From positions 449,001 to 513,000 of the forward strand of contig NZ_CP091716.1 in the NCBI RefSeq assembly GCF_022009635.1: a stretch of DNA of 64,000 bases. The letters run 5' to 3'. This document shows, one piece after another, positions 27,501 to 62,692 of the stretch; position 1 is the stretch's first letter, and each line of letters starts with the position of its first letter. Made by a program: the position numbers and the translations under genes. The notes beneath the pieces were generated by a model. The model did not search any database and was not told where the DNA came from. It saw only the letters and a program-made list of their open reading frames with translations. Origin of the DNA: Variovorax paradoxus. GTDB lineage: Bacteria; Pseudomonadota; Gammaproteobacteria; Burkholderiales; Burkholderiaceae_C.

Positions 27501-27780
27501 TGGGCGCATCGCGCCGACCCGCCTTGAGGGCATCAACCTGCGCGGCGTCTTCCGCTTCCCACTGGAGCGCTACGCGGGGCAGATCCTGCCGTCGCAAACT
27601 GCGGCGAAAACAAGCACCAGCGGCTGAAATCAACCCAACATTGGTGCGGGCTGCAGCCTGATTGGAGGACCAACAGAAACCCATTGTCTGACAAGCACTT
27701 GCGCGTGACGAACCGCCAGAACCCGCGCCAACGCTCGTCGGTCGAACCGTCACTTTTTGCACTGAAATCAAGGAGACCCC
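24562..27780 (+). mobile_element. IS1071-like element, copy A
   Basis: This 3219-bp Tn3-family element has only a transposase gene and no resolvase, as in IS1071. The ends read GGTGTCCCCTTGATTTCAG on the left and, on the opposite strand, GGGGTCTCCTTGATTTCAG on the right. Identity continues through GTGCAAAAAGTGACGGTTC and similarity extends further inward. The flanking five bases differ, so there is no simple target duplication. The transposase is intact, making this the copy likely to supply activity. Confidence 0.87.
24715..27627 (+). CDS. tnpA: IS1071-type Tn3-family transposase
   Basis: This 970-residue transposase matches the known length of the IS1071 protein. It has the N-terminal MQGWQTSYLGLRDLP end-binding region. 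The catalytic half carries TASIGVYSHVRDRWG, QLAVDTHGYTDFAMALSRLLGFDLCPRL and NRGEAVNALKRAIYTGRVG, in place of the canonical Tn3 wording, and ends NLRGVFRFPLERYAGQILP. It is uninterrupted, unlike the copy at 59529-62440. GGAG lies 5-9 bases before the ATG. Confidence 0.92.
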   Translation: MQGWQTSYLGLRDLPRELTEFELQAFFSFSRGELELIARRRGDNHKLGLALHIGFVRMSGRPLNSVRAVPALLLRHLGQMLDLEAPDLASLRALYARGRTLFDHQQQACEVLGFAWMTEHQRRALVRILRDEVAHSADRERLLLHARHWLYEHRLLIVHDRVIRGLVAAALTELEAVTAQSIRAAALAVTLKRWSLALDCTRADGQHCQSWLWSAPAKHSTRQIAEVLERIAFLTELGIDQHLGDLNDVLVRRYARRMASRPPSVSARIKEPARTLEMACFLRYCLLTATDQLILMFQRRVADLWRHCADGVSATVDWAQQYQQLLRELADLVAQETVPDVELRARLRDLVAAKRARRAPSRASVIRQHLIDANAPVRSLLVAVSGLSWQATGEHPVLDALDKLRAQYAAGTKSLPAEVTAPRLGPAWREAIADLDRDRALRALEVATLFALRRALRNGSVWIEHSLSFRGRERLFLPDERWKAEARRHYARLQLPAKASDFLAPLLARVRAGVDAVAAATRAGLLRVDDELHLAPLAADEEDPQVTKLRTRLDQRIGEVQLPEVILAVDAQVRFSWIMLGREPRSGQELLMVYAGILAHGTSLTAAECARMIPQLSATSIRQAMRWAGDERRLALACQAVLEFMQRHAIATTWGRADLASSDMMSLETSRRVWQARQDPRRQTASIGVYSHVRDRWGIFHAQPIVLNERQAGAAIEGVVRQERIETSQLAVDTHGYTDFAMALSRLLGFDLCPRLRELRQRHLFVPRGMKIPEEIAAVCEASVDTALIETHWDNLVHLAASVMSGHASAVAALARFGSAARGDPIYDAGVQLGKLLRTAFLADYFVNAGFRRELRRVLNRGEAVNALKRAIYTGRVGPAQARRSDEMQAVADALSLLANIVMAWNTAQMQSVLDRWANRRQIVPPELTGRIAPTRLEGINLRGVFRFPLERYAGQILPSQTAAKTSTSG

Positions 27781-31308: not shown

Positions 31309-31311
31309 CGT

Positions 31312-41042: not shown

Positions 41043-41050
41043 CCGCACCC

Positions 41051-42001: not shown

Positions 42002-42002
42002 A

Positions 42003-42785: not shown

Positions 42786-42810
42786 CGGCCCGATCCCCGG
42801 AGAGCTCCCC

Positions 42811-43788: not shown

Positions 43789-43795
43789 ACTTCGC

Positions 43796-44794
43796 CTAGG
43801 TCGCCGCAGGCCCCGGCACGAACACGTCGCTAAAGAAGTGCGCCGCATCGAGGCCGAGCTCCTGCACGCAAGCCTTCTTCACCGCCGCCACCATCGGCGG
43901 TGCGCCGCAGCAGTAGACCTCATGGCCCGCGAGGGAAGGGCAGTGGGCGCGGACGGCATCGTCGACGCGGCCATGGAAGCCGCCCAGCGCCTGGGCGTCG
44001 TCCGCGTTCTCCAGCGCCGCGATGAAGCTGAAGCCGGGCATCAGCTTCTTCCAGCGCTCGACCGCCGCCATCAGGTACAGCCCGCCGCTGTTGCGGCCGC
44101 CCCAGACCAGGGTCACCGGACGCTTGACCCCTTTCTTCACCATGTCGTCCAGCAGGGACTTGACCGGCGCGAAGCCGGTCCCGCCGACCACGCACAGCAT
44201 CGGGGCCGAGCTCTCTTCCTTCAGCTCGAAATTGCCGAACGGCAGCTCCACCTGCAGCAGATCGCCCTGCTGCAGCGTCGGCACGATCTGCGTGAACTGG
44301 CCGCCCGGGACGTGGCGGATGTGCAGCTGCAGCGTGTCGCTTTCGTGCGGCGGATTGGCCATCGAATACGAGCGGCGGCTGCCATCGGGCAGCGCGACCT
44401 GCAGGTACTGGCCGGCCTTGAACTTTGCACGCTGGCCGGCAGGCAGCCGCAGCTGCAGCACGCTGACGTCGTCCGCCGCCAGCGTGTTGCGGAACACCTT
44501 GACGGTCAGCTGCTTGCGCGCCGACGGGTCGAAGCGGTGCCAGGCCGTGGGCACGATCTCCAGGTCGCCTTGCGGCAGGCACTGGCAGTACAGCACCTGG
44601 CCCGCTGCCGCGACATCGTTCGGCGGGCACTGCACCGATCCGGAGGCGATGCCGCCGGCGCAGTTCCCGCACACGCCCTTGCGGCAGGAATAGGGCATCT
44701 CGATGCCGGCCTTCAGGCCCGCGTCGAGGATGTTCTGTCCCGGTTCGCAGGAAAAATGCTGGTCGCTGCCGGCGATGCGGATGTCGTAGGCCAT
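43796..44794 (-). CDS. tphA1: terephthalate 1,2-dioxygenase reductase TphA1
   Basis: This 332-residue reductase has an N-terminal plant-type [2Fe-2S] domain (Cys37, 42, 45 and about 70 in YSCRKGVCGNC and VLYCQC). An FAD domain (RSYSMANPPHESD) and an NAD domain (GGTGFAPVKSLLDD) follow. Order, length and wording match TphA1 of Comamonas. It passes NADPH electrons to the TphA2A3 oxygenase. It is the last gene of the operon, 26 bases after tphB. Confidence 0.92.
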   Translation of the reverse strand: MAYDIRIAGSDQHFSCEPGQNILDAGLKAGIEMPYSCRKGVCGNCAGGIASGSVQCPPNDVAAAGQVLYCQCLPQGDLEIVPTAWHRFDPSARKQLTVKVFRNTLAADDVSVLQLRLPAGQRAKFKAGQYLQVALPDGSRRSYSMANPPHESDTLQLHIRHVPGGQFTQIVPTLQQGDLLQVELPFGNFELKEESSAPMLCVVGGTGFAPVKSLLDDMVKKGVKRPVTLVWGGRNSGGLYLMAAVERWKKLMPGFSFIAALENADDAQALGGFHGRVDDAVRAHCPSLAGHEVYCCGAPPMVAAVKKACVQELGLDAAHFFSDVFVPGPAAT

Positions 44795-44820
44795 GGAGTG
44801 GAAATCCGGGGAAGGGGAAG

Positions 44821-45756
44821 TCAGGAGATGCCGGCGACCAGGCGCAGGCTGCGCAGCAAGGCATCGGGCCGGGCCTGGCCCGTGCCGGCGATGTCCATCG
44901 CGCTGCCATGACCGGTGCTGGCCAGCAGCACCTCGCCGCCGATCGACAGGGCGCTGGCCGCCTGCGGCGCCAGCAGCTTGACGGGGATGTGGCCCTGGTC
45001 GTGCAGCATCGCGACGTACAGGTCGTGCTTGCGGTCGGCCAGCAGCACGTCGGCGCCGGCCGGGCCGTCGACGGCGATGCCCTGTTCGCGCAGCCGAAGC
45101 GCCGCCGGCACCACGAGCTCCGCGTCCTCGGGCCCGAACAAGCGGCCTTCGGAGGCGTGCGGGTTGATGCCGAACAATGCCACCCTGGGCTGCGCCAGCC
45201 CCAGCATGCCGCAGGCGCGCACGCCGGCCTGGGTCGCGGCCACGATCAGGTCGGGCGTGATGCGGGCCAGCGCCGTCGCCACGCTCTCGTGCAGCGTCAC
45301 GTGCACGATGCGCAGGCCGCCGCCCACCAGCATCAGGAAGACGCTGTGTTCGTCCTGGCCGCAGGCCCGCGCCACCAGCGAGGGATAGCCGCTGAAGGAG
45401 ATGCCGGCCTGGTGGATCGCCGTCTCATGGTGCGGGCCGGCGACCACGGCGTCGAACTCGCCTGCCCGGCACGCCTGGATCGCCAGCGTGGCCGAAGCGA
45501 CGGCACTGGCGCCGGCCTGCGCATTCACCTGGCCTGGCAGGGCCGCGGCGGCGGGCAGTTCTCCCACCGGCCGCAGCGCCATACCCAGGAAGACAGCTTC
45601 CATGCCGCAGGCTGTGGCCGTGCGCCGCAGCACTTCGGCCGGCCCGAACACCGTGATCTGCAGGCGGTCCTCCCCACGCAGCGCGGCCAGCGCCTTGAGC
45701 ACGATCTCGGGCCCGATCCCGTTCGGGTCGCCGACCGACAGCGCGATCCTTCTCAT
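44821..45756 (-). CDS. tphB: 1,2-dihydroxy-3,5-cyclohexadiene-1,4-dicarboxylate dehydrogenase TphB
   Basis: This 311-residue PdxA-family protein has [48 protein letters not shown] and [20 protein letters not shown]. The His residues of the last two bind the metal. In this operon position the family member is TphB, which oxidatively decarboxylates the terephthalate cis-diol to protocatechuate, rather than the pyridoxine enzyme. It begins 7 bases after tphA3 ends. Confidence 0.92.
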
Positions 45757-45763
45757 GGGCGGC

Positions 45764-46228
45764 TCACAGCGGCAGGGCCATCAGCGTGTCCGTCACGGTG
45801 CTGTCGCACACGGCCACCCGTTCGGCCAGCAGCAGCTTGCCGCCGTCCATCACGAAGCGGTCGTGGTACTCGCCGGTGGCGAACACCATGGTCTCGCCGG
45901 TGGCCATGATCCGCGCCACCAGGAAGGGCGTGCGGGCCACCGCCTGGTCGTCTCTCGCGCTTTCGACCAGCGGAATGCCCAGCAGGTGCCGGTAGCGGTG
46001 GCGCTCGTAGATGTTGGCCTCGCGCAGGGCGGCGATGCGGTCCTCCAGCATGGCGCGCGAGTCGGCGTAGACGATGCCCGAGGGCAGGCCTTCCTTCTCG
46101 TTCTCGACGTTGGTGATGCGGTAGGTGCAGGCTTCGGTGAAGAAGGCCGGCCATTGCTCCAGCGCTTCGCTGTCGATCGCATTGGCATAGGAGGCGTTGA
46201 AGGCGCAAAGCGCCAGCAGGTCGATCAT
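45764..46228 (-). CDS. tphA3: terephthalate 1,2-dioxygenase small subunit TphA3
   Basis: This 154-residue beta subunit of ring-hydroxylating dioxygenases (SnoaL-like fold) includes [22 protein letters not shown] and [14 protein letters not shown]. It is structural in the alpha3beta3 oxygenase. It lies 18 bases downstream of tphA2. Size and order match the Comamonas tph operon. Confidence 0.92.
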
Positions 46229-46246
46229 TGGAATTTCCTTTGCGGC

Positions 46247-47473
46247 TCAGGCGCACATGTGGTGGCGATAGGCCTTCCAGAAGCCGCGCACCGAAGCCTC
46301 GGTGGCGCGCCCTTCGCTGGAAGCCGCCTGGTCGCCGCCCATCTCGATGATGGCTTCCAGCCCCTGGGCCCCGGCGATGCCGCGCTGCACGAAGCCGCCG
46401 ACGGCGCCGTCTTCCATCGAGATGAAGCCGGCCGGCCCGACCAGGTTCTGCTGCTTGAGGCGGACCTTGCGCTGCTCCGGCGTGTCGTCGGTGTAGCCGA
46501 TGTAGGTCCAGTTGAGTTCACTTCGCTCCTGGCCCTTGGGCAGCACCTGGCGCACGGCCAGGCAGTTCTGGATCTGCTGCAGCACGAAGCCGGGGAAGAC
46601 CGACAGGATCTGCAGCGTGATGCCGTCGTCGTACTCCTTGAAGCCCGCCAGCACGCTCGGGTCCTTCAGCCGGTATTTCGAGTCGTCGGAGCGAATGCCC
46701 TGCTGCTTGTACGACTCGTCGGCCGCATCGGGGTCGGTCATCGAGTAGCTCACGTGATGGCCGCCGGACTCGTCAACGATCAGTCCGCCCTTTTGCGACA
46801 GGCGGTTCAGCTCGAAGGTGGTGAAGAACAGGTGCAGCAGGCTGGCGTGGTAGCTGTCCTTGACGTTCTCCATGTACAGCTTCCAGTTGTTCGGCAGGGC
46901 CTGGGTGAAGCGGCCGATCACCTCGACCGGCTTGTGCAGCACCCGCTCGATGCGCTGGCAAATTTCCGGTCCCAGGTAGTCCTCGATGCCTGGCACGTCC
47001 TCGCTGAAGCTGCCGAACACCAGGCCGCAGTAGACGGCGACGCGCAGCTTCCGCGGCCCGTGGTCTTCCTTGCAGAAGCTCTTGGCCATGCCGCCCTGGC
47101 CCTTGACGCCGGCCTCGAAGGCGACGCCGGTCAGGTCGCCCTGGCGGTTGTAGCTCCACGCGTGGTAGACGCACTGGAAGCCGTCGACCTTGCCCGATTT
47201 CTCCAGTGCGATCAACGCGCCGCGGTGGGCGCAGCGGTTCTCGAAGGCGTAGATCTCGCCGTCGTCGTCCTTCACCACCACCACCGGCGTATCGCCGACG
47301 AAGGTGGTGCGAAAGCTCCCACTCTCCGGCAGGTCGGCCTCCAGGCACAGGTAGTTCCAGGTCTCGCCGCGGTAGATCCTCTCCTGCTCCTGCGCCGCGG
47401 CCTGGTTGTCGGTGTAGACCGCGAAAGGCACGCGCGTCAGGCCCGGGCCCTTCCATTGAATCGTTTGTTCCAT
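46247..47473 (-). CDS. tphA2: terephthalate 1,2-dioxygenase large subunit TphA2
   Basis: This 408-residue alpha subunit has a Rieske centre C81/H83 (CAHRGA) and C101/H104 (CVYHAW). The mononuclear iron site is around D206-x2-H209-x4-H214 in [15 protein letters not shown]. Long stretches, such as [20 protein letters not shown] and [18 protein letters not shown], are those of TphA2 of Comamonas sp. E6 as I remember it. It dihydroxylates terephthalate at positions 1 and 2 with TphA3 and TphA1. Start chosen at 47473, the first ATG after the tphC stop. Confidence 0.94.
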
Positions 47474-47478
47474 GATGC

Positions 47479-48459
47479 TTACCCCAGGCTCACGTTGGCG
47501 CTCTTGATCACCTTGTTCCACTTTTCCGACTCCTTGCGGATGAAGGCGCCGGTCTGTTCCGGCGACCATCCGCCCGGCTCGGCGCCCTGTTCGGCGAACT
47601 TCTGCCGGATGTCGGGCAGGGCCAGCGCCGCGGCGATCGCCTTCTGCATCTCCGCTGCGGCAGCCGGCGGCGTGCCCGCGGGCGCCACCACCGAGAAGAA
47701 GGTGACGGCTTCCATTGGCACCCTGGACTCGGTCAAGGTCGGCACCTGCGGCAGCAGCGGCGAACGCTTGTCGTCCGCCACCGCCAGGATCCGCAGCCGG
47801 TTGCCGGTGTGGAACTGCGCCGACGAACTGATGTTGTCGAAGAACACGTCGACGTTGCCGCCCACCAGGTCGACCAGCGCCGGCGCCGTGCCCTTGTAGG
47901 GGATGTGGTTCATCGTGGTGCCGGTGGCCTGCATGAACAGGGCCGCCGTCAGGTGCGACGTGGAGCCGTTGCCCTGCGATGCGTAGCTCACCTTGCCCGG
48001 ATTGGCCTTGAGGTGGGCGATGAATTCCGCCACGTCCTTCACCCCCAGCTTGTTGCTCACGACCAGCACGTTGGGGACGGTGGCGAGCACCGTCACGGGC
48101 ACCCACCTGGTGGGGTCGAACGACAGCGACTTGTACAGGTGGTGGTTGATCGCGATCGGGCCGGGAGGCGAAACCAGGAAGGTGGTGCCGTCGGCATCGG
48201 AGCGGGCCACGAACTCGCCGCCGATGTTGCCGCCGGCGCCGGTCTTGTTCTCCACCAGGACGCCGCCGGGATAGCTGGTGCGCAGCTTCTCGGACACCAG
48301 GCGCGGCAGGATGTCCGCCGTCCCGCCGGCCGGGAAGGGCACGATGAACCTGATGGGCTTGGGGGCCTGGGCGATGGCGGTGCCGGTGGCCGCAAGCGCG
48401 ACTCCCAGCAGCAAGGCGGCGCGCCTGGAGATGTTGTGTTTCATGCGTGAATGTTTCAT
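47479..48459 (-). CDS. tphC: terephthalate-binding receptor TphC (Bug family)
   Basis: This 326-residue protein has a signal peptide ([23 protein letters not shown]) and Bug motifs [34 protein letters not shown] and [17 protein letters not shown]. It precedes tphA2 by 5 bases, as TphC does in Comamonas, where it binds terephthalate for a TctAB-type carrier. An in-frame ATG at 48444 is an alternative start. TctAB genes are not in the window. Confidence 0.88.
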
Positions 48460-48487
48460 GGAGGACTGTTGAATCGTTTCGTGCTGC

Positions 48488-49201
48488 CTAGACGCCCAGG
48501 TACTCGCCGAGGAGTTGCGGTTGTGACCGCAGTTCGTTGCCCGTGCCTTCGAACACCACCCGGCCCTTGACGAGGATGACGTTGCGGTCGGTGAGATCGC
48601 TGACCGCCTTCCAGTTCTTGTCCACCAGGATGGTGGCGATTCCGGATTCGCGGATCACCTTGATGATGCGCCAGATTTCGCGGGCGATCAGCGGCGCCAG
48701 GCCTTCGGTGGCTTCGTCCAGGATCAGGACCTGCGGGTTCGTCATGAGCGCGCGGCCGATGGTCAGCATCTGCTGCTCGCCGCCCGAGAGCTGCTGGCCG
48801 CCGTGGCCCAGGCGCTCGCCCAGCCGCGGGAAAGTTGCGAGCACCCGGTCGTAGTGCCATTCGCGGCGGCCGTCGGTCCCCGGCCGCGCGGCCAGTGTCA
48901 GGTTCTCCCGCACGCTCAGGTTGGGGAAGATCCCGCGCCCTTCGGGCACGTAGGCGATGCCGAGGCGGGCGATGTCGTGGATCTTCATGCCGGCGGTGGG
49001 GCGCCCGAAGGCGGCCACGTCGCCGCCGCGCGGGCGCACGACGCCGACCAGCGACTTCAGCAGCGTGGACTTGCCCATGCCGTTGCGGCCCATCAGGCCC
49101 ACGGCCTCGCCTCGCGCCAGCGTGAAGTCGACGCCGTGCAGGATGTGGCTCTCGCCGTAGAAGGAATGCAGGCCGCGGGCCTGCAGGACCGGCTCAGCCA
49201 T
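48488..49201 (-). CDS. livF: LivF-type ABC transporter ATP-binding protein (set 2)
   Basis: This 237-residue ATPase has Walker A GRNGMGKST, the signature LSGGEQ and Walker B VLILDEATEGL. It is highly similar to the set-1 protein at 27951, especially from the signature to DEATEGLAPLIAREIWRI. It overlaps livG by 8 bases and leaves 28 bases before tphC, so transporter and tph genes appear to be one operon. Confidence 0.9.
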   Translation of the reverse strand: MAEPVLQARGLHSFYGESHILHGVDFTLARGEAVGLMGRNGMGKSTLLKSLVGVVRPRGGDVAAFGRPTAGMKIHDIARLGIAYVPEGRGIFPNLSVRENLTLAARPGTDGRREWHYDRVLATFPRLGERLGHGGQQLSGGEQQMLTIGRALMTNPQVLILDEATEGLAPLIAREIWRIIKVIRESGIATILVDKNWKAVSDLTDRNVILVKGRVVFEGTGNELRSQPQLLGEYLGV

Positions 49202-49955
49202 GCACGTCCTCCTCGGCGCCGAGGTATGCCTGCTGCACCTGCGGGTTGCTGCGGATCTGCTCCGGCGATCCCGTCGTCAGCACGACGCCGTTGACCATGA
49301 CCGTGAGCACGTCGGCGATCGAGAACACCGCGTCCATGTCGTGTTCGACCAGCAGGATCGCGTGCGAGGCGACCAGCCCGCGCAGCAGTTCGATCATGCG
49401 CAGCGATTCCTCGTGGCCCATGCCGGCCAGCGGTTCGTCCAGCAGCAGCACCTGCGGCCGGGTCGCCAGCACGATCGCGAGTTCGAGCTGGCGCTGCTGG
49501 CCGTGGCTCAGTTCGCTGGCACGGCGCTCGGCGACGGCGGACAGGCCCGCGTCGCGCAGCGCCTGGTCCACCACCTCGCGGTAGGGCCCCCAGGCCGCCG
49601 CGTCGCTGAAGATGTGCGCGGCCCGCGGCTCGCGCGCCTGGGCGGCCAGCCGGCAGTTCTCCCGGACGGTGAAGCCGGGAAAGATGTTCGTCTTCTGGTA
49701 GCTGCGCCCGATGCCGATCAGCGAGCGCTCGTGCGGCGACAGGTGGGTGATCTCCCGATCGCGGTAGAACACCTGGCCGGACGACGCCGGGATGTCGCCG
49801 GACAGCAGGTTGATCAACGTCGACTTGCCGGCCCCGTTCGGCCCCAGGAGCGCATGGACCTGGCCGCGGCGCAGCTCGATCGAGATCCGGTCGTTCGCCG
49901 CCAGTCCGCCGAAGGTCCGGCGCAGCGCCACTGTCCGCAACAGCACTTCGTTCAT
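49194..49955 (-). CDS. livG: LivG-type ABC transporter ATP-binding protein (set 2)
   Basis: This 253-residue ATPase has Walker A GPNGAGKST, the family signature LSHGQQRQLELAI and Walker B VLLLDEPLAGM. The start at 49955 overlaps the livM stop as ATGA. It works with LivF to energise uptake. Confidence 0.9.
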   Translation of the reverse strand: MNEVLLRTVALRRTFGGLAANDRISIELRRGQVHALLGPNGAGKSTLINLLSGDIPASSGQVFYRDREITHLSPHERSLIGIGRSYQKTNIFPGFTVRENCRLAAQAREPRAAHIFSDAAAWGPYREVVDQALRDAGLSAVAERRASELSHGQQRQLELAIVLATRPQVLLLDEPLAGMGHEESLRMIELLRGLVASHAILLVEHDMDAVFSIADVLTVMVNGVVLTTGSPEQIRSNPQVQQAYLGAEEDVHG

Positions 49956-50932
49956 GCTGCCCTCCCTTGCCGCAGGCGCTTGACCCGGTCGAACAGCGAG
50001 AACATGCCGCCGGGCAGGAACAGGACGATGAGCACGATCGCGATCCCCAGCCACAGGTGCCACAGCTTGCTGTACGACGACAGCAGCTCCTGCAGCAGCA
50101 CGAAGGTGAAGGCCCCGATCGGGCCGCCCCAGAGCTGGCCCATGCCGCCCAGGATCAGCATCAGCAGCACGTCGGCCGACTGGTGCCAGGACAGCATCTC
50201 GGGGTTGACGCTGCCATTGAGCACCGCGAAGAGGTAACCGGCGAGTCCACCGAACGCGCCGGCGATGGTGAAGGCCGCGAGCTTGTAGCGGAACACCGGA
50301 AAGCCGATCGCCTCCATTCGGTGCTCGTTCTCGCGGATGCCCTGCAAGGCGCGGCCCAGCGGCGAGCGCAGCAGCAGCGCCATGGCCAGCAGCAGCGCCG
50401 CCATCAGAACCAGCACGAAGTAGTAGAGGGTATTGGGGTCGGTGAGCTCGAACGGCACCCAGCCGCCGATCCGGGTGTCCGGCTTGCCGCGCAGGTTCAT
50501 TCCGTCCGAGCTGCCGCCCAGCGCCTTGATGTCGTGGAAGAAGAAATAGAAGATCTGGGCGAAGGCCAGGGTGACCATGATGAAGAACATGCCGCGGGTG
50601 CGCAGCACGAACAGGCCGACCAGGAACGCCGCCGCCGCCGTCACCAGCATGGCGGCGGGGAGCGTGAGCCACAGGCTGTCGGTGAGCTGGTACTTGGTGC
50701 CGAGCAGGGCGAACACGTAGCCGCCCATGCCGAACCAGGCCGCGTGGCCGAAGCTCACGAGGCCGGTGTAGCCGACCAGCAGGTCCAGGCTGATGGCGAA
50801 GATCGACAGGATCATCACCCGCGTGACCAGCTCGGTGTAGAACTCCTGCCCGAACAGCGGAAAGGCGGCCAGCGCGCCGAGGAAGACGGCAATGATGGCC
50901 GCGCGCGAGCGCGAGGTGACGAGCGACATCAT
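49952..50932 (-). CDS. livM: LivM-type ABC transporter permease (set 2)
   Basis: This 326-residue multi-spanning permease has LDLLVGYTGLVSFGHAAWFGMGG, IRENEHRMEAIGFPVFRYKLAAF and AGYLFAVLNGSVNPEML. Its start (ATGATG at 50932) overlaps the livH stop. A longer upstream frame exists inside livH and is rejected. It forms the channel with LivH. Confidence 0.9.
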   Translation of the reverse strand: MMSLVTSRSRAAIIAVFLGALAAFPLFGQEFYTELVTRVMILSIFAISLDLLVGYTGLVSFGHAAWFGMGGYVFALLGTKYQLTDSLWLTLPAAMLVTAAAAFLVGLFVLRTRGMFFIMVTLAFAQIFYFFFHDIKALGGSSDGMNLRGKPDTRIGGWVPFELTDPNTLYYFVLVLMAALLLAMALLLRSPLGRALQGIRENEHRMEAIGFPVFRYKLAAFTIAGAFGGLAGYLFAVLNGSVNPEMLSWHQSADVLLMLILGGMGQLWGGPIGAFTFVLLQELLSSYSKLWHLWLGIAIVLIVLFLPGGMFSLFDRVKRLRQGRAA

Positions 50933-51792
50933 GACTTGAAGAGCCCTTCCGGACGCCACAGCAGGATCGCGGCCATCACCACATAGATGGCGATGCCGGC
51001 GTAATCCGGCACGAACACCTTGCCGAAGGTGTCGGCGAACGCCACCAGCAGCGAGGCCAGCAGCGCGCCCCAGACCGAGCCGATGCCGCCCACGATCACC
51101 ACCACGAAGCTGACGATCAGCACCTGGGTCCCCATCCCGGGCGACACGCTGGAGGCCGGGGCGTTGAGCATTCCGGCGAAGGCCGCCAGCGCCACGCCCA
51201 GGGCGAACACCAGCCGGTACAGCCAGTCGATGTTGATGCCCAGGAGCTGCACCATGCCGCGGTTGGACGAGCCGGCGCGGATGCGCGCGCCGACCAGGGT
51301 GCGCTCGATCAGCAGGTACAGGCCCAGGGCCAGCACCAGGCACACGCCGGACATGAACAGCCGGTAGGCCGGATAGGTCATGACGCTGCCCAGCGGCACG
51401 GAGAAATTCAGCCAGTCCGGCACCTTGACCGAGTAGACCTCGTTGCCCACCAGCACGCTGCGCAGTTCCTCGAAGATCAGGATCAGGCCGTAGGTGAGCA
51501 GCACCTGCTGCAGGTGGTTGCGCCGGTACAGGTGCGAGAACAGCGCCCATTCCAGCAGCGCCCCCAGCACCGCGCTCAGGACCACCCCGATCACGATCGC
51601 CAGCAGCAGGTTGCCGGTCAGCGCGGTCAGGGTGAACGCGAGATAGGCCCCCATCATGTAGAAGCTGCCATGCGCGAGGTTGATCACGCCCATCACGCCG
51701 AAGATGAGGGTCAGTCCGCTGGCGACCAGGAACAGCAGAAGGCCGTACTGGACGGCATTCAGCGTCTGGATCAGGATGAGGGCGAGGTCCAT
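50929..51792 (-). CDS. livH: LivH-type ABC transporter permease (set 2)
   Basis: This 287-residue permease begins MDLALILIQTLNAVQYGLLL. It has GVINLAHGSFYMMGAYLAF, RIRAGSSNRGMVQLLGIN and VGGIGSVWGALLASLLV, and ends RPEGLFKS. It has the same length as the set-1 LivH and is clearly related. It lies 24 bases after livK. Confidence 0.9.
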   Translation of the reverse strand: MDLALILIQTLNAVQYGLLLFLVASGLTLIFGVMGVINLAHGSFYMMGAYLAFTLTALTGNLLLAIVIGVVLSAVLGALLEWALFSHLYRRNHLQQVLLTYGLILIFEELRSVLVGNEVYSVKVPDWLNFSVPLGSVMTYPAYRLFMSGVCLVLALGLYLLIERTLVGARIRAGSSNRGMVQLLGINIDWLYRLVFALGVALAAFAGMLNAPASSVSPGMGTQVLIVSFVVVIVGGIGSVWGALLASLLVAFADTFGKVFVPDYAGIAIYVVMAAILLWRPEGLFKS

Positions 51793-51816
51793 GCGTTCAG
51801 GCGCGGCGTCTTGCCG

Positions 51817-52989
51817 TTACAGCTTGCAGTCCGGCGACGGGTCGACCAGGCCCTTGACGATCACGTCCGTCATCACGTTCTGGGTGCCGCGGGCCACGCG
51901 CACGTAGTAGTCCTGCACGGGGTTGTGCGACTTCGAGAAGCTCAGGGGCCCGCGCGGGCTGTCCAGCTTGGCGTTCTCCATCGCCTTGATCATCTCGGCC
52001 TTCTTCTTCGTGTCGCCCTTCACGGCGCGCATGCCGGCGTCGAACAGCTGGGCGGCGTCATAGCCCTGCACGGCGAACACGTCCGGGGCCGCGCCGAAGG
52101 CCTTGGTGTACGAGGCGATGAAGGCCTCGTTCTTCGGGTTCTTCAGGCCGTCGGCATAGTGCAGCGCGGTCTGCAGGCCGCTGGCCGCGTCGCCCTGGGC
52201 TGCCAGCGTCCCTTCGGTGATGAAGGCCCCGTACAGCGGGATGGACGTCTTCAGTCCCGCGGCGGCGTAGTCCTTGACGAACATCACCTGGCCGGCGCCG
52301 GCGACGAACACATAGGCCGCCTCGGGCTTGATCGTGGCCAGCTCGGTCAGCAGCGGCTGGAACTCCACGCCGGGGAAGGGCAGGTTCAGGTCCTTGAGCA
52401 CCTTGCCGCCGCCCTTTTCGAAGCCTTCGCGGAAGCCCCGCACGGACTCGTCGCCGGCGGCGTACTTCCAGCTGATGGTGACCGCCGTCTTGTGCTTCCT
52501 GGCGGCCAGCAGGCCGCTGGCGTAGCCGGGTTGCCAGTTGCTGAACGAGCTGCGGAACACGTTGGGTGCGCACATGGAGCCGGTGATCTCGCCGGCGCCG
52601 GCATTCGGCACGATCAGCAGCGTATTGGTCTCGCGAGCCACCTTGGCCATGGTCTGCGCGACACCGGAATGGATGGTGCCCACCAGCAGGTCGACCTTGT
52701 CGCGCTTGACCAGCTTGTTGGCGTTCTCGTTGGCCTTGGACGGATCCGATTCGTCGTCCACCGCCAGGTACTCCACCGCGCGGCCGCCCAGCTTGCCGCC
52801 CTGCTCGTTGACGTACAGCTTGAAGCCGTTGGTGACGCCCTTGCCGAGGTCGGCGAAGGTGCCGGAGCTGGGCAGCATCAGGCCGATCCTGACCGGCGCG
52901 GGCTGGGCCTGTGCGGCGACGGCCACGCTGGCCAGCGCCAGCGCCGCGGCTGCGCGCGACACGGCTCGAAGGGAAAGAAGTCTGGACAT
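51817..52989 (-). CDS. livK: LivK-type periplasmic substrate-binding protein (set 2)
   Basis: This 390-residue protein has a signal peptide (ALALASVAVAAQAQP) and a Peripla_BP_6 domain (IGLMLPSSGTFADLG, VDLLVGTIHSGV, YAAGDESVRGFREGF). It is paralogous to the set-1 protein at 32503. Placed between the aldehyde dehydrogenase and the permease genes, it probably binds the para-substituted benzoate that enters the pathway. That substrate is inferred from context only. Confidence 0.9.
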   Translation of the reverse strand: MSRLLSLRAVSRAAAALALASVAVAAQAQPAPVRIGLMLPSSGTFADLGKGVTNGFKLYVNEQGGKLGGRAVEYLAVDDESDPSKANENANKLVKRDKVDLLVGTIHSGVAQTMAKVARETNTLLIVPNAGAGEITGSMCAPNVFRSSFSNWQPGYASGLLAARKHKTAVTISWKYAAGDESVRGFREGFEKGGGKVLKDLNLPFPGVEFQPLLTELATIKPEAAYVFVAGAGQVMFVKDYAAAGLKTSIPLYGAFITEGTLAAQGDAASGLQTALHYADGLKNPKNEAFIASYTKAFGAAPDVFAVQGYDAAQLFDAGMRAVKGDTKKKAEMIKAMENAKLDSPRGPLSFSKSHNPVQDYYVRVARGTQNVMTDVIVKGLVDPSPDCKL

Positions 52990-53032
52990 GAGGTCTCCTG
53001 GAGTTGTTTGGTTGGCGATGGAATGAAGCGGG

Positions 53033-54496
53033 TCAGGGCACACGCGAGGATTCGGACACGAACTTGGTGACCAGGTACCCGTCGAAGGTCTCGGTCCCGC
53101 CTTCGCTGCCCATGCCGCTGTCCTTGACTCCACCCAGCGGCGTCTCGGCCAGCGCCAGGCCGAAGTGGTTGATGGTCACCATGCCGGCCTCGAGCCGGTT
53201 GCTCACATGGTGGGCGGTGGCGAGCGAATTGGTGAAGACATACGAGGCCAGCCCGTAGGGCAGGGCGTTGGCGCGGGCCAGCACTTCGTCGGTGCTGCCG
53301 AAGCGCGTCACCGGGACGACCGGGCCGAACGGCTCCTCGGTCATCAGGCGCGAGTCGTCGGGCGCGTTGGCCACGACGGTCGGCGCGAAGAAGTTGCCCG
53401 CGCCGGCCAGCCGGTCGCCGCCGCACAGGACGGCCGCGCCGCGTGCGCGCGCATCGGCCACCAGCGATTGCATCGCCTCCACGCGGCGGTCGTGCGCCAA
53501 CGGTCCCATCTGGGTCTGCGGCGCCAGCCCGTCGCCGACGCGCAGGCCGGCATAGACGCCGGTGAAAGCGTCCAGAAAGCGGTCGTAGGCCTTGTCGTGG
53601 ACAAAGAAGCGGCTCGGCGCCATGCAGACCTGGCCGGCGTTGCGGGTCTTGGTGCGCGCCAGGAAGCGAGCTGCCGGCTCGACGTCGGCGTCATCGAACA
53701 CCAGCACCGGGGAATGTCCGCCGAGCTCCATGGTCATCCGCTTCATCTGCGCGCCGGCCAGTGCGGCCAGGCTCTTGCCCACGGCGGTGGAGCCGGTGAA
53801 CGAGATCTTGCGCACGATGGGCGATGCGATGAGGTGGCCGGAGACTTCGGCCGGCACGCCCCAGACGACGTTCAGGCAGCCGGGCGGCAGGCCGGCGTCA
53901 TGGAAGATGCGCGCCAGTGCGACAACCGCGCTGGGCGAGTCTTCCGGCCCCTTCAGGACCAGCGTGCAGCCGGCGCCCAGTGCGGCCGCCGCCTTGCGCA
54001 GCGCCTGGTTAAACGGAAAGTTCCAGGGCGTGAAGGCGGCGCAGACGCCGATCGGCTGGCGGATGACCATCTGCCGCACGCTTTCCGAACGCGGCGGGAT
54101 GACGCGGCCATAGATGCGGCGGCATTCCTCCGCATGCCACTCCGCGTGCTCGGCGCAGCTGCTCACCTCCTGCAAGGCCTCGGCCAGCGGCTTGCCCTGG
54201 TCCAGCGTGATGTTGCGGGCGATGGCCGGCGCGCGCTCGCGGATCAGTCCGGCGACGCGGCGCAGGATCGCCGAGCGCTCCATTGGCGAGGTGTGGCGCC
54301 ACGACTGGAACGCCCGGTCGGCGGCGGCCAGTGCGCGGTCCAGGTCCTGCCTGCTCGCGTGCGGCAGCCGGGCGAACGCGACCCCGGTGGCGGGGTTGAC
54401 GACATCCTGCTCGCGCCGGCCATCGGCCGCGACGAACTCGCCATCGATGTACAGCGCGAGCTGTTCGTAGGCCTCGGGGTTGGTCTGTGCGTCCAT
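53033..54496 (-). CDS. NAD(P)-dependent aldehyde dehydrogenase
   Basis: This 487-residue ALDH-superfamily enzyme has [32 protein letters not shown], the general-base Glu in MELGGHSPV and the catalytic Cys in [11 protein letters not shown]. It matches the succinate-semialdehyde/aryl-aldehyde branch in length. It lies 12 bases behind the SDR gene. I infer that it oxidises 4-formylbenzoate (or an analogous aldehyde) to terephthalate. Confidence 0.9.
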
Positions 54497-54507
54497 CGGA
54501 TCGGGTC

Positions 54508-55266
54508 TCAGAGGAACACGCCGCCGCCGTCGACGGCGAGGGTCTGGCCGGTGACGAAGCTGGCGCCGTCGCTGACCAGGTAGGCCAGCGCAGCCACCAG
54601 GTCGGCCGGCACCTGGTCGCGCTGGATGCAGCGGCCGGTAGTGCGGGCGTTGTCGCCGATGCGGTTCTGCAGGTCGCTCTGCAACACGCCGTCGCTCAGG
54701 GTGAAACCGGGGGCGATGGCGTTGACGGTGATCCTGTCCTTGGCCAGCTCGCGCGCCAGCGAACGGGTGAAGGCAATCAACGCGCCCTTGCTGGCCACGT
54801 AGTGCGACATGTTGGGCGGTCCCTTGATCGGCACGGTGGATGCGATGTTGACCAGCCGGCCGCGACCGCTCTTGCGCAGCGCCGGCAGGACCGCCTTGGC
54901 GCAGTTGAACGGGCCGAGCGTGTTGACTTCCATCACCCGCATCCATTCCTGGTTGCTGATCTGCTCGAACGGCTTGAGCGCCAGGGTGGTGAACAGGCCG
55001 GCGTTGTTGACGAGGCCGTCGATGCCGCCGAATTCCTTCAGTGCGGCCGCGGCCATCGCGGCCACGTCGTCTTCGCTGACCACGTCCGCCTGCAGGCCGA
55101 TGGCCTGGTGGCCCGCGCTGCGCAGGCGCCCGGCGGCGGCGTCGGCGCCGCGGAGGTCGGCGATGACGATCCGGTGCCCGAGTTGGGCGAGGTGCTCGCA
55201 GAAGGCGTAGCCGATGCCGCTGGCGGCGCCGGTGACGATGATGGTCTTGGGCTGTTCGGGGATCAT
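54508..55266 (-). CDS. short-chain dehydrogenase/reductase (SDR 2)
   Basis: This 252-residue classical SDR has TGAASGIG at 12-19, NNAG at 87-90, Ser143, Tyr156 and Lys160. Its place between the P450 redox genes and the aldehyde dehydrogenase suggests oxidation of the benzylic alcohol made by the P450. It is a paralogue of SDR 1 at 33743. An in-frame upstream extension is inside the reductase gene and is not used. Confidence 0.88.
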
Positions 55267-55283
55267 GGCTGTCCTGTGTTGGT

Positions 55284-56510
55284 TCAAGGAGCGACAAGCG
55301 CCGCCAGCTTCACGCTGGGGTCGGCGGCTTGCGTGGAGGAGATGGGTGTGCCGGCGGCGAGCAGCTTGCGCGCGGCCATGTGGTCGGCGGCGCTGTTGAT
55401 CGACTCCACGGCCGACAGGCGGCCGTCGCGAAAGCGCAAGACCGAGAACTTGCCGGCGGCCGGGTCGCCGCGTAGCACGGCGCTGTCGCCAGCTTCGGCG
55501 AGACCGGCGATCTGCAGGCGGTTGTCGCCCTGGTCGCTCCAGAACCAGGGTACCTTGGCGTAAGGCTCGGCCTTGCCGACGATGCGGGCGGCGACGCAGC
55601 GGGCCTGGTCGACGGCGTTCTGCACCGACTCGATCCGCACCGGTGCGTCGCAATAGCCGGCGGGATAGCGGGCGCAGTCGCCGATGGCCGAAATGAAGGG
55701 GTCGCTGGTCGCCAGGTGCCGGTCGACGACGATGCCGGCCTGCACCTGCAGGCCGGCGCTGGTAGCCAGTTCCACGTTGGGTTCGACGCCGATGCCGACG
55801 ACCACCAGGTCGGCCGCGACGGACTCGCCGCCGGTGGTGAGGACGGCCTCGACGCGGCCACCGCCGCCGGTGAAAGCGGTGACGCCGGTTCCCATGCTGA
55901 ACTCCACGCCCCGGGCGAGCTGTGCCTGCGCCAGGTAATCGGCCGTCGTCGCGGACACGGCGCGGAGGAGGGCGCGGTCGGCGAACTCGATCACCCGCAC
56001 CTCCAGGCCCAGTTGGCGCGCCATCACGGCGACTTCGAGCCCGATGAAGCCTGCGCCGACCACCACCAGCCGGCGCGCCTCGCGCAAGCGGCCCAGGAGG
56101 GCCTGCGCATCGGCCCGCGTGCGCAGCGCCAGCACGCCCTGCAGGTTCACACCCGCAACCGCGGGCATCCGGGCGCGGGCGCCGGTGGCAAGGACAAGGT
56201 GCTCGTAAGCCAGCGACGCTCCCGAGGCGAGCGTCACCCGACGCGCGCCTCGGTCGATGTTCGTCACCCGGTCCGGCGCGATCAACGCGATGTTGCGCTC
56301 GGCATAGAAGGCGGCCGGCCGCAGCTCGATCTGGCCGGCATCCGTCTTTCCCGCGAGGAAGGACTTGGACAGCGGCGGGCGCTGGTACGGCAGGCCGGGC
56401 TCCTCGCCGACCAGCGTGACGGGGCCTTGGTAGCCCTCGTCGCGCAGCGAGGTCGCGAGCTGGAAGCCGCCCTGTCCGCTGCCGACCACGATCACGCCAG
56501 GCTGTTGCAT
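55284..56510 (-). CDS. FAD-dependent ferredoxin reductase (P450 redox partner)
   Basis: This 408-residue pyridine nucleotide-disulfide-type reductase has an FAD GSGQGG motif at 10-15, [13 protein letters not shown], an NAD motif [12 protein letters not shown], and [11 protein letters not shown]. It resembles putidaredoxin and rhodocoxin reductases. The gene starts 7 bases after the ferredoxin stop. It would reduce the [2Fe-2S] ferredoxin with NADH. Confidence 0.9.
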
Positions 56511-56517
56511 GCGCGCT

Positions 56518-56841
56518 TCAGACCTGGTGCGAGGGGATGTGGACGATGAGTTGCTCGACCCCGGGCTGCAGCACCAGCTGGCAGCTCAAGCGGCTGTTCT
56601 CGCGCCGGCCGCTGGCGGCGCTGTCGAGCATTTCGTTTTCGACCTCGCTGACCGGGTCCACCAGCGCCCGGCTGGCGTCGTCGATGTAGACGTGGCAGGT
56701 GGCGCACATGGCGGCGCCGCCGCACTCGGCGACGATGCCGGGGATGCTGTTGGCAACGGCCGTGAGCATGACGGTGGCGCCGGTGTTGGCGGCAACGGAG
56801 CGGCGTGCGCCGTCCGGCTGGACGTACGTGATCTGGGGCAT
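56518..56841 (-). CDS. [2Fe-2S] ferredoxin (putidaredoxin type)
   Basis: This 107-residue adrenodoxin/putidaredoxin-type ferredoxin has cluster ligands Cys40, Cys46 and Cys49 (ECGGAAMCATCHVY) and Cys87 (RLSCQL). It lies 40 bases downstream of the P450 gene and is its likely electron donor. Confidence 0.92.
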   Translation of the reverse strand: MPQITYVQPDGARRSVAANTGATVMLTAVANSIPGIVAECGGAAMCATCHVYIDDASRALVDPVSEVENEMLDSAASGRRENSRLSCQLVLQPGVEQLIVHIPSHQV

Positions 56842-56881
56842 GGGCGCCTCTGGAGCGGAAGGGGTGGGAAGAAGGAGAAGC

Positions 56882-58108
56882 TCAGCCCGCGCTGATGCTC
56901 ACGGGCATGCTGGTGTAGCCGCGCACGGAGTTGTTGTAGTGGATGACGGGCTTGCCTTCGAGCCGGATGTGCTTGACCCGCCTGGCCAGCGCCGTCAGCA
57001 CGATCTCGCCTTCGAGGCGGGCGATCATCTGGCCGGCGCAGCCATGGATGCCGGTGCCGAAGGCCATGTTGCCGGCGGCGCGGCGGCTGACGTCGAACTT
57101 GTCGGCGCTGTCGCCCCAGCGGCGCGGGTCGCGGTTGGCCGAGCCGATGAAGACGCAGACCTTCTGCTCGTTGGCCATCGTTGCGCCGGCCACTTCCACT
57201 TCGCGGGTGGTGGTGCGGTAGAACGAGTGGAAGGTGCTTTCGAAGCGCAGCACCTCCTCCAGCGCCTGCCGGGCCATCGACGGATTGGCATGCACCAGCG
57301 CCCACTGGTCCGGATAGCGGGCGAACGACAGGATCGCGTTGCACAGCGTAAAGACGGTGGTGTCGAGGCCGGCGGAGAGCAGGGTGCGCACCAGCATCGG
57401 CGCTTCTTCCGGCGCCAGCAGGCCGTCGTCGGCCGCCTTGTACAACTGTGCGCCGAAGCCGTCCGGCGTCAGGTTCTCGCGCTTGCAGACTTCCGTGACC
57501 CACGCGATGGCGCCGGCCTGCGCCTTGTCCAGGCAGGCCTTGAAACGGTCGTTGACCGGGCCGAAGGCGTTGAACACCATGTCGCCATAGGCAAGCAGGT
57601 ACTTCTCGCGACCTTCCGCCGGGATGCCGACGGCGTCGGCGAACACCTTGAGCGGATAGGCCTCGCACAGGTCGGTGACGGCGTCGAAGCTGCCCTGTTC
57701 GAGCACGCGATCGACCAGCAGTTCGGCCTGGTGTTCGAAGGTCGCACGCAGCTTGTTGATCGCGGCAGGGGCCAGCAGGCCGGCCACCACCTTGCGGGTG
57801 CGGCCGTGCATCGGCGGGTCGACCTCCAGGATGATGCTGGGCTTGCGCCACGCCTCCTGCACGTGGAAATTGGCCAGGCCGACACCGCCGCTCGAGCAGA
57901 AGGTGGCCGCGTCGCGCAGCACCATGTCGATCTCGGCGTGGCGTGCGATGCCGAAGGCGTCGTAGCGGCTCAGATAGAACACCGGGCCCAGCTCCCGCAG
58001 CATCTCGTAGTGCGGATAGGGGTCGTCGAGCACAGCGTCCGCATAGGGATCGAAGTCCGTGACGGGGACGGTGACCTCGGTCGGCCGGAGCGTATGAGCG
58101 CTGGTCAT
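56882..58108 (-). CDS. cytochrome P450, CYP199A-like
   Basis: This 408-residue class-I P450 has I-helix AGLDTT at 246-251, ExxR at 285-288 and heme Cys357 in FGTGIHGCAGQ. R88/S91 in RKPS and R241/S245 in RTLLS fall where CYP199A4, as I recall, binds the carboxylate of para-substituted benzoates. That enzyme oxidises 4-methyl- and 4-methoxybenzoate at the para group. The start at 58108 has AAGGA upstream and begins the 15-gene run; the longer frame crosses the promoter. Substrate here is inferred: p-toluate fits the downstream SDR, ALDH and tph genes best. Confidence 0.88.
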   Translation of the reverse strand: MTSAHTLRPTEVTVPVTDFDPYADAVLDDPYPHYEMLRELGPVFYLSRYDAFGIARHAEIDMVLRDAATFCSSGGVGLANFHVQEAWRKPSIILEVDPPMHGRTRKVVAGLLAPAAINKLRATFEHQAELLVDRVLEQGSFDAVTDLCEAYPLKVFADAVGIPAEGREKYLLAYGDMVFNAFGPVNDRFKACLDKAQAGAIAWVTEVCKRENLTPDGFGAQLYKAADDGLLAPEEAPMLVRTLLSAGLDTTVFTLCNAILSFARYPDQWALVHANPSMARQALEEVLRFESTFHSFYRTTTREVEVAGATMANEQKVCVFIGSANRDPRRWGDSADKFDVSRRAAGNMAFGTGIHGCAGQMIARLEGEIVLTALARRVKHIRLEGKPVIHYNNSVRGYTSMPVSISAG

Positions 58109-58229
58109 TGCTGCTGTTCCTTGTCTTGTGCGGTGCCTGTTCGAGCAGCCCGAAGTTTCGTCCCGAGTTTGACCTGGGTCAACGAATTTGCACTTATAGT
58201 TCGCATATCGAACTTTGGAGGCGAAAAAG
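58109..58229. promoter_or_regulatory. divergent promoter region with IclR-type operator
   Basis: These 121 bases separate the P450 and IclR genes and should hold the promoter of the whole minus-strand run. At 58199-58213 is the perfect inverted repeat GTTCGCATATCGAAC, very like the GTTCGATAATCGCAC box bound by PcaR-type IclR regulators. It ends 16 bases before the iclR ATG, so autoregulation is likely. No other copy was noticed in the cargo. Confidence 0.75.
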
Positions 58230-59015
58230 ATGGTGGCCCAGCGCGAGCAGAAGGACCCGGTCAAGGAGGAGAAGGAGTACGTGATGGGGCTGGAGAAGGG
58301 CCTCGCGATCGTCGAAGCCTTCGGCATCGCCAAGGGGCCGCTGACGCTGACCCAGGCGGCGGAGATCACCGGCCATACCAAGGCCGCCGTGCGCCGCAGC
58401 CTGCTGACCCTGTGCAGGCTGGGTTACGCCGCGCAGGACGGCCGGCAGTTCCGGCTGGCGCCGCGCTCGCTGCGGCTGGGCCATGCCTACGTCGCCTCGG
58501 ACCCGCTGACCAAGGTGGCGCAGCCGATCCTGGAGATGACCAGCGAACGCACGAAGGAGTCGGCATCGATCGCAGTGCTGGACGCACAGGACGCGGTGTT
58601 CGTCGCCCGTTCCACGCACCGCCGCAGCCTGTCCAGCGGACTGGGCGTGGGCGTGCGCCTGCCGGCCTATGCCAGCGCGACGGGGCGCGTGCTGCTGTCC
58701 GAGAAACCGCCGGCGGAGGTCGAGTTCATGCTGAACCGGATGTCGCGTCCGGCGCTGACGCCCCATACGCGCACTGCCATGACGGGGATCATGAAAGAGA
58801 TTGCCCGCGTCCGCACGCACGGCTACGCCATCAGCGACGAGGAGCTGGAGATCGGCCTGCGCTCGATCGCCGTCCCGATCCGCACCGGCCGCGGGGAACT
58901 CATCGCTGCGATGAGCCTGTCGGTTGCCACCAGCCGCATGACGCGCGAGCAGGTGATCGAGAAACTGGTGCCGGAGCTGGAGACGGCGCGGCGCACCTTC
59001 GCGGCGCTGCTCTGA
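58230..59015 (+). CDS. IclR-family transcriptional regulator
   Basis: This 261-residue regulator has a winged helix (LEKGLAIVEAFGIAKGPLTL, GHTKAAVRRSLLTLCRLGY) and an IclR effector domain (RRSLSSGLGVGVRLPAYASA, ARVRTHGYAISDEELEIGLRSIAVPI). The closest described group is PcaR/PobR/TphR, which respond to aromatic acids. GGAG lies 8-11 bases before ATG 58230. It probably controls the divergent P450-to-tphA1 run. Confidence 0.9.
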   Translation: MVAQREQKDPVKEEKEYVMGLEKGLAIVEAFGIAKGPLTLTQAAEITGHTKAAVRRSLLTLCRLGYAAQDGRQFRLAPRSLRLGHAYVASDPLTKVAQPILEMTSERTKESASIAVLDAQDAVFVARSTHRRSLSSGLGVGVRLPAYASATGRVLLSEKPPAEVEFMLNRMSRPALTPHTRTAMTGIMKEIARVRTHGYAISDEELEIGLRSIAVPIRTGRGELIAAMSLSVATSRMTREQVIEKLVPELETARRTFAALL

Positions 59016-59024
59016 AGGCGAGGG

Positions 59025-59193: not shown

Positions 59194-59466
59194 GGGGTCT
59201 CCTTGATTTCAGTGCAAAAAGTGACGGTTCGACCGACGAGCGTTGGCGCGGGTTCTGGCGGTTCGTCACGCGCAAGTGCTTGTCGGGGTCTCCTTGATTT
59301 CAGTGCAAAAAGTGACGGTTCGACCGACGAGCGTTGGCGCGGGTTCTGGCGGTTCGTCACGCGCAAGTGCTTGTCGGGGTCTCCTTGATTTCAGTGCAAA
59401 AAGTGACGGTTCGACCGACGAGCGTTGGCGCGGGTTCTGGCGGTTCGTCACGCGCAAGTGCTTGTC
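59194..59466 (-). repeat. triplicated 91-bp IS1071 terminus
   Basis: The outer 91 bases of the IS1071-like end, from GGGGTCTCCTTGATTTCAG to CGCAAGTGCTTGTC, occur three times head to tail at 59194, 59285 and 59376. The units look identical by eye. The third unit runs on into the element. Copy A has the unit only once. This is a duplication at the cargo-facing end and not a CRISPR array, since there are no spacers. Confidence 0.92.
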
Positions 59467-59528
59467 AGACAATGGGTTTCTGTTGGTCCTCCAATCAGGC
59501 TGCAGCCCGCACCAATGTTGGGTTGATT

Positions 59529-62440: not shown

Positions 62441-62692
62441 CGCCGCTGCTCCTCTTGGATCGGAAAGCAGCCAAAGATACGCCCCGCCGCAGTGAACAGC
62501 AATCCTTTTGAAATCAACAACTTATAAAACCAGAGCCGCGCCGCTACTGGCGATCGGAACCGTCACTTTTTGCACTGAAATCAAGGGGACACCTTCTTGG
62601 TCTGGTGCATGTTCGGGTCGTGTATTGCGGAAACTTCGTAGGTCACTTCGTATTGCAATGCCTGGAAGTTTCTGCATGCGCGTGACAGTCCG

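Follow-up and report, generated by a model that had tools for sequence, protein, structure and literature searches.

Which reaction opens a catabolic pathway whose genes place a cytochrome P450 ahead of a terephthalate (tph) gene set? The question is raised by a 64,000-nucleotide stretch of the Variovorax paradoxus genome (hereafter the window), in which 15 open reading frames (ORFs), each open throughout, follow one another on the minus strand from 58108 to 43796 in the order P450, ferredoxin, reductase, short-chain dehydrogenase (SDR), aldehyde dehydrogenase (ALDH), LivKHMGF, TphC, TphA2, TphA3, TphB and TphA1 (Table 1). We consider it likely that this locus is an operon for the P450-initiated catabolism of p-toluate (4-methylbenzoate) together with that of terephthalate. 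The p-toluate route is the simplest one that uses every enzyme.

The 14 junctions measure, in order, 40, 7, 17, 11, 43, 24, -4, -4, -8, 28, 5, 18, 7 and 26 bp with 52989 (ATG) taken as the start of LivK and 48459 as that of TphC. The initial annotation, which had placed all the genes on one strand with gaps under 45 bp, was correct in this respect. Spacing and strand agree with co-transcription of the 15 genes, which would then form a single operon. A scan of 43700-59100 for sigma-70-like promoters returned no site, with 1.0 expected by chance, and likewise missed the operon's own promoter; terminator-like sites in the same interval were at chance level (6 found versus 6.8 expected). Scanned with Rfam at its gathering cut-off and for tRNA genes, the window gave no matches. 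The P450, ferredoxin, reductase, SDR, ALDH, TphC, TphA2, TphA3, TphB and TphA1 products each fall in the expected Pfam family, and a broken pathway is ruled out by the 15 open frames and by the key residues, which are in place.

In the TEREPHTHALATE core, TphA2 matches the terephthalate dioxygenases 7vju (81% identity, E 2e-233) and 7q04 (E 4e-232), the next structure following at 2e-86. According to PMC9060491, N224, S243 and R390 set terephthalate dioxygenase apart in a comparison of five characterised homologues; the other carboxylate is held by R309. TphA2 of the window keeps all four substrate contacts together with H210, H215 and D356, as expected of a terephthalate dioxygenase. The four contacts are also kept in all 22 P450-linked loci (see below) whose TphA2 covers these sites, the cut-off TphA2 of L014-L016 not being scorable; in five relatives at 45-46% identity (L099-L103) R309 is kept and N224, S243 and R390 are not. 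TphC matches 8hka (E 4e-134) and 7ndr (E 6e-129), the next family member being a Bug protein at E 3e-60. TphB matches 4aty, a terephthalate 1,2-cis-dihydrodiol dehydrogenase, which is outscored by four sequences named 4-hydroxythreonine-4-phosphate dehydrogenase (8zj3 and its kin). TphC, A2, A3, B and A1 with a divergent IclR regulator are also the components of the tph operon of Comamonas sp. E6 / KF-1, to which the locus described here adds P450, ferredoxin, reductase, SDR, ALDH and Liv genes at the upstream end.

The P450 carries the heme motif FGTGIHGCAG with Cys357 and an I-helix acid-alcohol pair in AGLDTT. Over aligned columns it is 51% identical to CYP199A2 and 48% to CYP199A4. The solved structures nearest to its predicted model (predicted local distance difference test score, pLDDT, 87.8) are CYP199A2, CYP199A4 and PbdA, at 47-50% identity and a root-mean-square deviation (rmsd) of 1.2-1.6 A (1.2 A over 396 residues for 2fr7). 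In CYP nomenclature, members of one family share more than 40% identity and members of one subfamily more than 55%. Judged by its sequence, the enzyme is thus a member of the CYP199 family; 48-51% identity and a clade apart from CYP199A2 and CYP199A4 count against its placement in subfamily CYP199A. Named CYP199A members are as little as 51% identical to each other (PMC11530827).

With CYP199A2, CYP199A4 and PbdA the enzyme shares the fold, the D251/T252 pair, a putidaredoxin-type ferredoxin and the contacts R92, S95, R243 and S247 (CYP199A4 numbering), with which its R88, S91, R241 and S245 align. It differs from these three in its genomic linkage to SDR, ALDH and tph genes, and from CYP199A2 and CYP199A4 in that T242 stands at the position of S244 (S244T), Phe at V295 (V295F) and His at Q296 (Q296H). 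S244 is a direct hydrogen-bond donor to the substrate in CYP199A4 and PbdA (PMC11854964, PMC11530827). In the Arg92/Ser95/Ser244 carboxylate pocket, the first two residues are therefore kept as R88 and S91 and the third is Thr242, with its hydroxyl retained. The initial description of the P450 as CYP199A-like with CYP199A carboxylate contacts holds for sequence, model, fold, heme site and the four aligned residues, but the S244 contact is a Thr, the Phe and His substitutions set the pocket apart, and the clade is separate from that of CYP199A2 and CYP199A4 (PbdA is not in the tree).

The route that we infer, in its reactions, their order and the starting substrate as well as in transporter specificity and regulator ligand, would run as follows. 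Ferredoxin reductase and ferredoxin would pass electrons from NADH to the P450, which would anchor the substrate carboxylate via R88, S91, T242 and R241 and hydroxylate the para methyl of p-toluate, giving 4-hydroxymethylbenzoate. The SDR would convert this to 4-formylbenzoate and the ALDH would convert 4-formylbenzoate to terephthalate, which TphA1A2A3 would dihydroxylate and TphB, rearomatising the diol, would turn into protocatechuate. CYP199A4 and PbdA hydroxylate p-ethylbenzoate (PMC11530827), so that para-alkyl hydroxylation would be within the reach of the family. The ferredoxin has as best solved match 4ltu, named merely Ferredoxin. TphA1 is thought unlikely to donate electrons to the P450, as a dedicated ferredoxin and reductase adjoin the latter.

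Ring cleavage of protocatechuate would be carried out by genes elsewhere on the chromosome, where a PcaH-type gene above cut-off lies at C1:6190148, immediately followed by a second intradiol-type match (a pcaGH-type pair); four LigB-family matches above cut-off are also present in the host genome, and 4,5-cleavage may be used instead. The Liv transporter and TphC would import the acids. Eight TctA-type matches above cut-off are found in the host genome, and these proteins could be the partners of TphC. A paralogous second Liv set lies at 28-34 kb of the window, with 72-84% DNA identity in aligned pieces.

The same succession of methyl to alcohol, alcohol to aldehyde by an SDR, aldehyde to acid by an ALDH, and then protocatechuate, is known from the TsaMBCD route (4-methylbenzenesulfonate / 4-methylbenzoate) of Comamonas testosteroni. 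Its first step had been ascribed initially to a Rieske oxygenase, in agreement with PMC10579966, which names the oxygenase TsaM with the reductase TsaB. TsaC and TsaD oxidise 4-hydroxymethyl- and 4-formylbenzoate, and TsaC alone also yields some acid (PMC10579966). The locus described here differs in that a P450, a ferredoxin and a reductase would take the first step and in that its SDR is not closest to TsaC. Among the matches listed for the open-licence literature of PubMed Central (titles, abstract openings and some passages, subscription journals lying outside), we found neither a CYP199 enzyme acting on p-toluate nor a P450 joined to tph genes.

The linkage was followed in a scan with one genome per species, which returned 49 P450 loci, 32 at a P450 identity of at least 57% and 17 below it; Ramlibacter albus, Hydrogenophaga palleronii and Celeribacter baekdonensis are among the relatives returned. 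Identity cut-offs were 57% for SDR, 60% for ALDH, 55% for TphA2 and 43% for TphA3; some loci are short, and absent means absent from the stretch covered. Ferredoxin directly follows the P450 in all 32 closer loci, and an SDR lies within 2.5 kb in all 32. An ALDH directly follows the SDR in 25 (overlapping it in L015), tphA2 or tphA3 is present in 26, and LivK at 60% identity or more is found in 8. Applied to the 17 distant loci, these cut-offs leave no SDR, ALDH or TphA2/A3; the closest approaches are an SDR at 48% (L042) and TphA1-like genes at 38-39% (L041, L050). The S244T, V295F and Q296H signature of the pocket is present in 32 of 32 loci and in 0 of 27 other rows, CYP199A2 and CYP199A4 included; the 57% cut, the clade and this signature all measure relatedness and are not independent tests. 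A chance neighbourhood is ruled out by recurrence in 26 of the 32 relatives, and the linked loci span alpha- and betaproteobacteria. The synteny search proposed with the initial annotation thus finds a P450-ferredoxin-SDR-tph linkage conserved well beyond the window. The arrangement, then presented as new, is not peculiar to the window; what stands is that a P450, not a Rieske oxygenase, would take the first step.

Gene order varies. Ramlibacter and Polaromonas have IclR, P450 cassette, Liv, TphC and TphA2; Hydrogenophaga has TphA2A3A1, P450 cassette and TphB, with a DctP-type binding protein between ALDH and TphB in L023; roseobacters have TphA2A3BA1 and then the P450. Cassette and tph genes are on opposite strands in L018, L036 and L037, and uptake genes differ between loci sharing the same oxygenase core. 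Among the six loci without tph, L012, L022, L034 and L035 stop at contig edges, and L011 belongs to genome G146 (whose 4-kb locus it contains), where TphA2 lies 9.5 kb beyond the P450. TphA2 is found elsewhere in the genomes of L013, the sixth (82%, 59%), L022 (69%, 68%) and L034 (58%).

A sample of 399 genomes from the family of the host gave a P450 match at E 1e-100 or better in 14, of which 4 reach at least 58% identity, the next being at 51%. All four have a TphA2 of at least 65% identity within 9.6 kb, such a TphA2 occurring in 25 of the 399 genomes; the chance of this co-occurrence is 1.2e-5, or 1.9e-4 for 3 of 3 without the host's own genome. One of the four P450s (L060, genome G267) is 76% identical and adjoins LivF, TphC and TphA2; its match stops at residue 359, the heme Cys was not found, and it is possibly a decaying or damaged copy. 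The four other genomes of the host genus in this sample gave no P450 match at E 1e-100, in line with an acquisition of the P450. In an order-level search of 399 genomes, the P450 was found at E 1e-130 or better in 2, both with TphA2, and TphA2 at E 1e-150 in 9. Among plasmids, 1258 records matched the P450, none at 60% identity, and no record covered 80% of the operon, the best, from Variovorax paradoxus, covering 29%.

In a 59-row P450 tree, all 28 tph-linked rows fall in one 35-row branch (support 98/94), and CYP199A2 and CYP199A4 in a separate 22-row branch (98/91) with no tph-linked row. The seven unlinked rows of the first branch are L011, L012, L013, L022, L034, L035 and L049 (53% identity, without cassette). 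The alignment omits five loci below 38% identity (L051, L053, L055-L057), still counted among the 17 distant loci; the tree also omits L058 and L059 (duplicates), L052 (partial), L060 and L071 (44%, divergent). On the CYP199A side, the P450s of L039, L040, L041, L050 and 8 of the 13 loci L062-L074 adjoin Liv-type ATPases that are 38-41% identical to those of the window; these loci mostly have ferredoxin and reductase, show no SDR, ALDH or TphA2 match of at least 38% in the stretches covered, and are perhaps units for methoxybenzoate uptake and demethylation.

The TphA2 trees have another shape. The 26 P450-linked rows of a 53-row tree do not form one clade, and constraining them to one lowers the log-likelihood by 101 (approximately unbiased test, p-AU 2e-5). 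In a 50-row tree, TphA2 of the window, L009, L010 and L017 groups with P450-free members of the family, that is, from genomes with no P450 match at 58% or more, and with the Comamonas E6 enzyme, which we take to be P450-free as well (95/95); TphA2 of the linked loci of Hydrogenophaga, Noviherbaspirillum, Neopusillimonas and alphaproteobacteria is 59-67% identical to that of the window. This tree omits L014-L016 (cut off), L055 and L056 (23-26%, unrelated) and the 4-kb loci L077, L094 and L097, which were restored as P450-linked in the 53-row tree (the neighbouring P450 of L094 may be damaged). Since the linked TphA2 are not one clade, the association of P450 and tph would have arisen, or been lost, more than once, the tests being compatible with repeated gain as well as with repeated loss.

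Several observations weigh against a p-toluate operon. ALDH is missing in 7 of the 32 relatives, the two closest (L009, L010) included; because TsaC makes some acid by itself, a linked ALDH may be dispensable in these. A ferredoxin reductase of at least 40% identity is missing in 3 of 32 (L020, L034, L037). The SDR is closer to several other SDRs than to TsaC (8sy8, ranking 14th), so that homology does not settle its specificity. In L013 (Ramlibacter rhizophilus) the P450 cassette has no tph genes nearby. Two metagenome bins whose completeness is not known, those of L012 and L035 (P450s 84-86% identical), showed no TphA2 at E 1e-100, which slightly lowers our confidence. Turnover of 4-methylbenzoate by CYP199A4, part of the background on this family, found no confirmation in the literature searched. 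The characterised CYP199A enzymes, finally, prefer 4-methoxybenzoate (PMC11530827).

CYP199 enzymes take several para substituents (PMC11854964, PMC11530827), and the substrate might be another para-substituted benzoate ending as terephthalate, namely 4-hydroxymethylbenzoate, a longer alkyl acid or, by O-demethylation, monomethyl terephthalate. We regard this as unlikely: longer alkyl groups would not be convertible to terephthalate by SDR and ALDH alone, demethylation of the ester would leave the SDR without a role, and V295F should shrink the pocket.

It is quite unlikely that the P450 is a 4-methoxybenzoate O-demethylase yielding 4-hydroxybenzoate and lies beside tph since both feed protocatechuate. 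Its structurally characterised neighbours CYP199A2, CYP199A4 and PbdA do carry out that reaction, and known members are mainly such demethylases (PMC11530827). However, the SDR (32 of 32) and ALDH (25 of 32) beside the P450 would be left without a role, none of the 17 distant loci has SDR, ALDH or tph genes by the same limits, and the clade departs from CYP199A2 and CYP199A4 at S244, V295 and Q296 in every one of the 32 loci. That cassette and tph operon are two independent transcription units made adjacent by transposition is very unlikely, for although Tn3-family units flank the region and relatives vary in the order of cassette and tph, with opposite strands in three of them, the gaps here are -8 to 43 bp, no promoter-like site was found inside the operon (a weak test), and the association recurs in alpha- and betaproteobacteria.

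Table 1. Coordinates of the operon, its regulator and the bounding transposon units in the window.
Feature	Position	Strand	Basis or remark
CYP199-family cytochrome P450, 408 aa, proposed p-toluate methyl hydroxylase	56882..58108	-	homology, residues, model
[2Fe-2S] putidaredoxin-type ferredoxin, cysteines 40, 46, 49, 87	56518..56841	-	homology
NAD(P)H-dependent ferredoxin reductase	55284..56510	-	Pyr_redox_2 + Reductase_C
Short-chain dehydrogenase, proposed 4-hydroxymethylbenzoate dehydrogenase	54508..55266	-	homology
Aldehyde dehydrogenase, proposed 4-formylbenzoate dehydrogenase	53033..54496	-	homology
LivK-type periplasmic binding protein	51817..52989	-	Peripla_BP_6
LivH-type permease	50929..51792	-	BPD_transp_2
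LivM-type permease	49952..50932	-	BPD_transp_2
LivG-type ABC ATPase	49194..49955	-	ABC_tran + BCA_ABC_TP_C
LivF-type ABC ATPase	48488..49201	-	ABC_tran
TphC, terephthalate-binding protein, tripartite transporter type	47479..48459	-	matches 8hka, 7ndr
TphA2, terephthalate dioxygenase alpha subunit	46247..47473	-	N224, S243, R309, R390 equivalents kept
TphA3, dioxygenase beta subunit	45764..46228	-	Pfam
TphB, cis-dihydrodiol dehydrogenase, PdxA family	44821..45756	-	match to 4aty
TphA1, [2Fe-2S]/FAD/NAD oxygenase reductase	43796..44794	-	homology
Intergenic region, regulator/P450	58109..58229	.	probable operon promoter, no consensus site in scan
IclR-type regulator, PcaR/PcaU/PobR subfamily, TphR-like in position	58230..59015	+	287.4 bits, cut-off 284.75
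Tn3-family unit, left copy, intact 970-aa transposase	24562..27780	+	inverted relative to right copy
Tn3-family unit, right copy	59376..62593	-	one base shorter than left, transposase frame split

The IclR gene lies upstream of the operon, divergent from the P450, and its product would control the divergent promoter. In known tph clusters the IclR-type TphR has the same position (PMC6562992). Of the 32 P450-linked loci (L010 to L044), 20 have a regulator 57-91% identical to that of the window, 5 have one at only 38-42%, and 7 have none in the locus; the 12 regulators found beside the tph genes of P450-free genomes of the family are 41-50% identical to it. The inducer of the regulator may have shifted together with the P450.

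The operon lies between two Tn3-family units, 99.97% identical and differing solely by one base of length, whose nearest plasmid relatives are about 80% identical (Methylibium petroleiphilum PM1, Aquincola tertiaricarbonis). No target-site duplication was found outside the two copies, the outer flanks reading TGATT and TTCTT, so that a textbook composite transposon is not accepted as proven. Directly before its own end at 59376, the right unit has its inner 91 bp repeated in tandem twice more (59194-59375). Beside the inner transposon ends, 59025-59190 looks by eye like the 3' remnant of an FMN-dependent hydroxyacid dehydrogenase-like gene, and 27781-27940 like a piece of a LivK-like gene. The Tn3-bounded stretch also holds a second aromatic-acid cluster (27951-43788), with Liv-type transporter genes, a nitrilase-like protein, an SDR, a VanA-type Rieske oxygenase and a PaaK-like ligase on the minus strand, and TetR, a PaaA-like protein, two enoyl-CoA hydratases, a Rieske ferredoxin, an intradiol dioxygenase, an HpaH-type hydratase (above cut-off) and a Bug protein on the plus strand.

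Beyond the p-toluate and terephthalate operon itself, we lean, with less assurance, towards a wider reading, in which a distinct CYP199 clade is specialised as natural p-toluate methyl hydroxylase and its P450-ferredoxin-SDR cassette has, on more than one occasion in alpha- and betaproteobacteria, become joined to genes for terephthalate dioxygenase. It would constitute a P450 counterpart to the Rieske-type Tsa route, carried here on about 38 kb bounded by near-identical Tn3-family units.

The P450-tph linkage is real and conserved, and the route predicted from it is well supported. If it is true, methoxybenzoate demethylation is not the only physiological role of CYP199 enzymes, and the step from p-toluate to terephthalate has been solved in nature by two unrelated oxygenases, the Rieske enzyme TsaM and a P450. 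Since the manufacture of terephthalate leaves p-toluate and 4-formylbenzoate as by-products, a single operon acting on these two and on terephthalate itself would be relevant to waste-water treatment. A shikimate route via p-toluate to terephthalate is mentioned as a proposal in PMC6562992, which calls the required activities unidentified, and the operon would also bear on the biological production of terephthalate.

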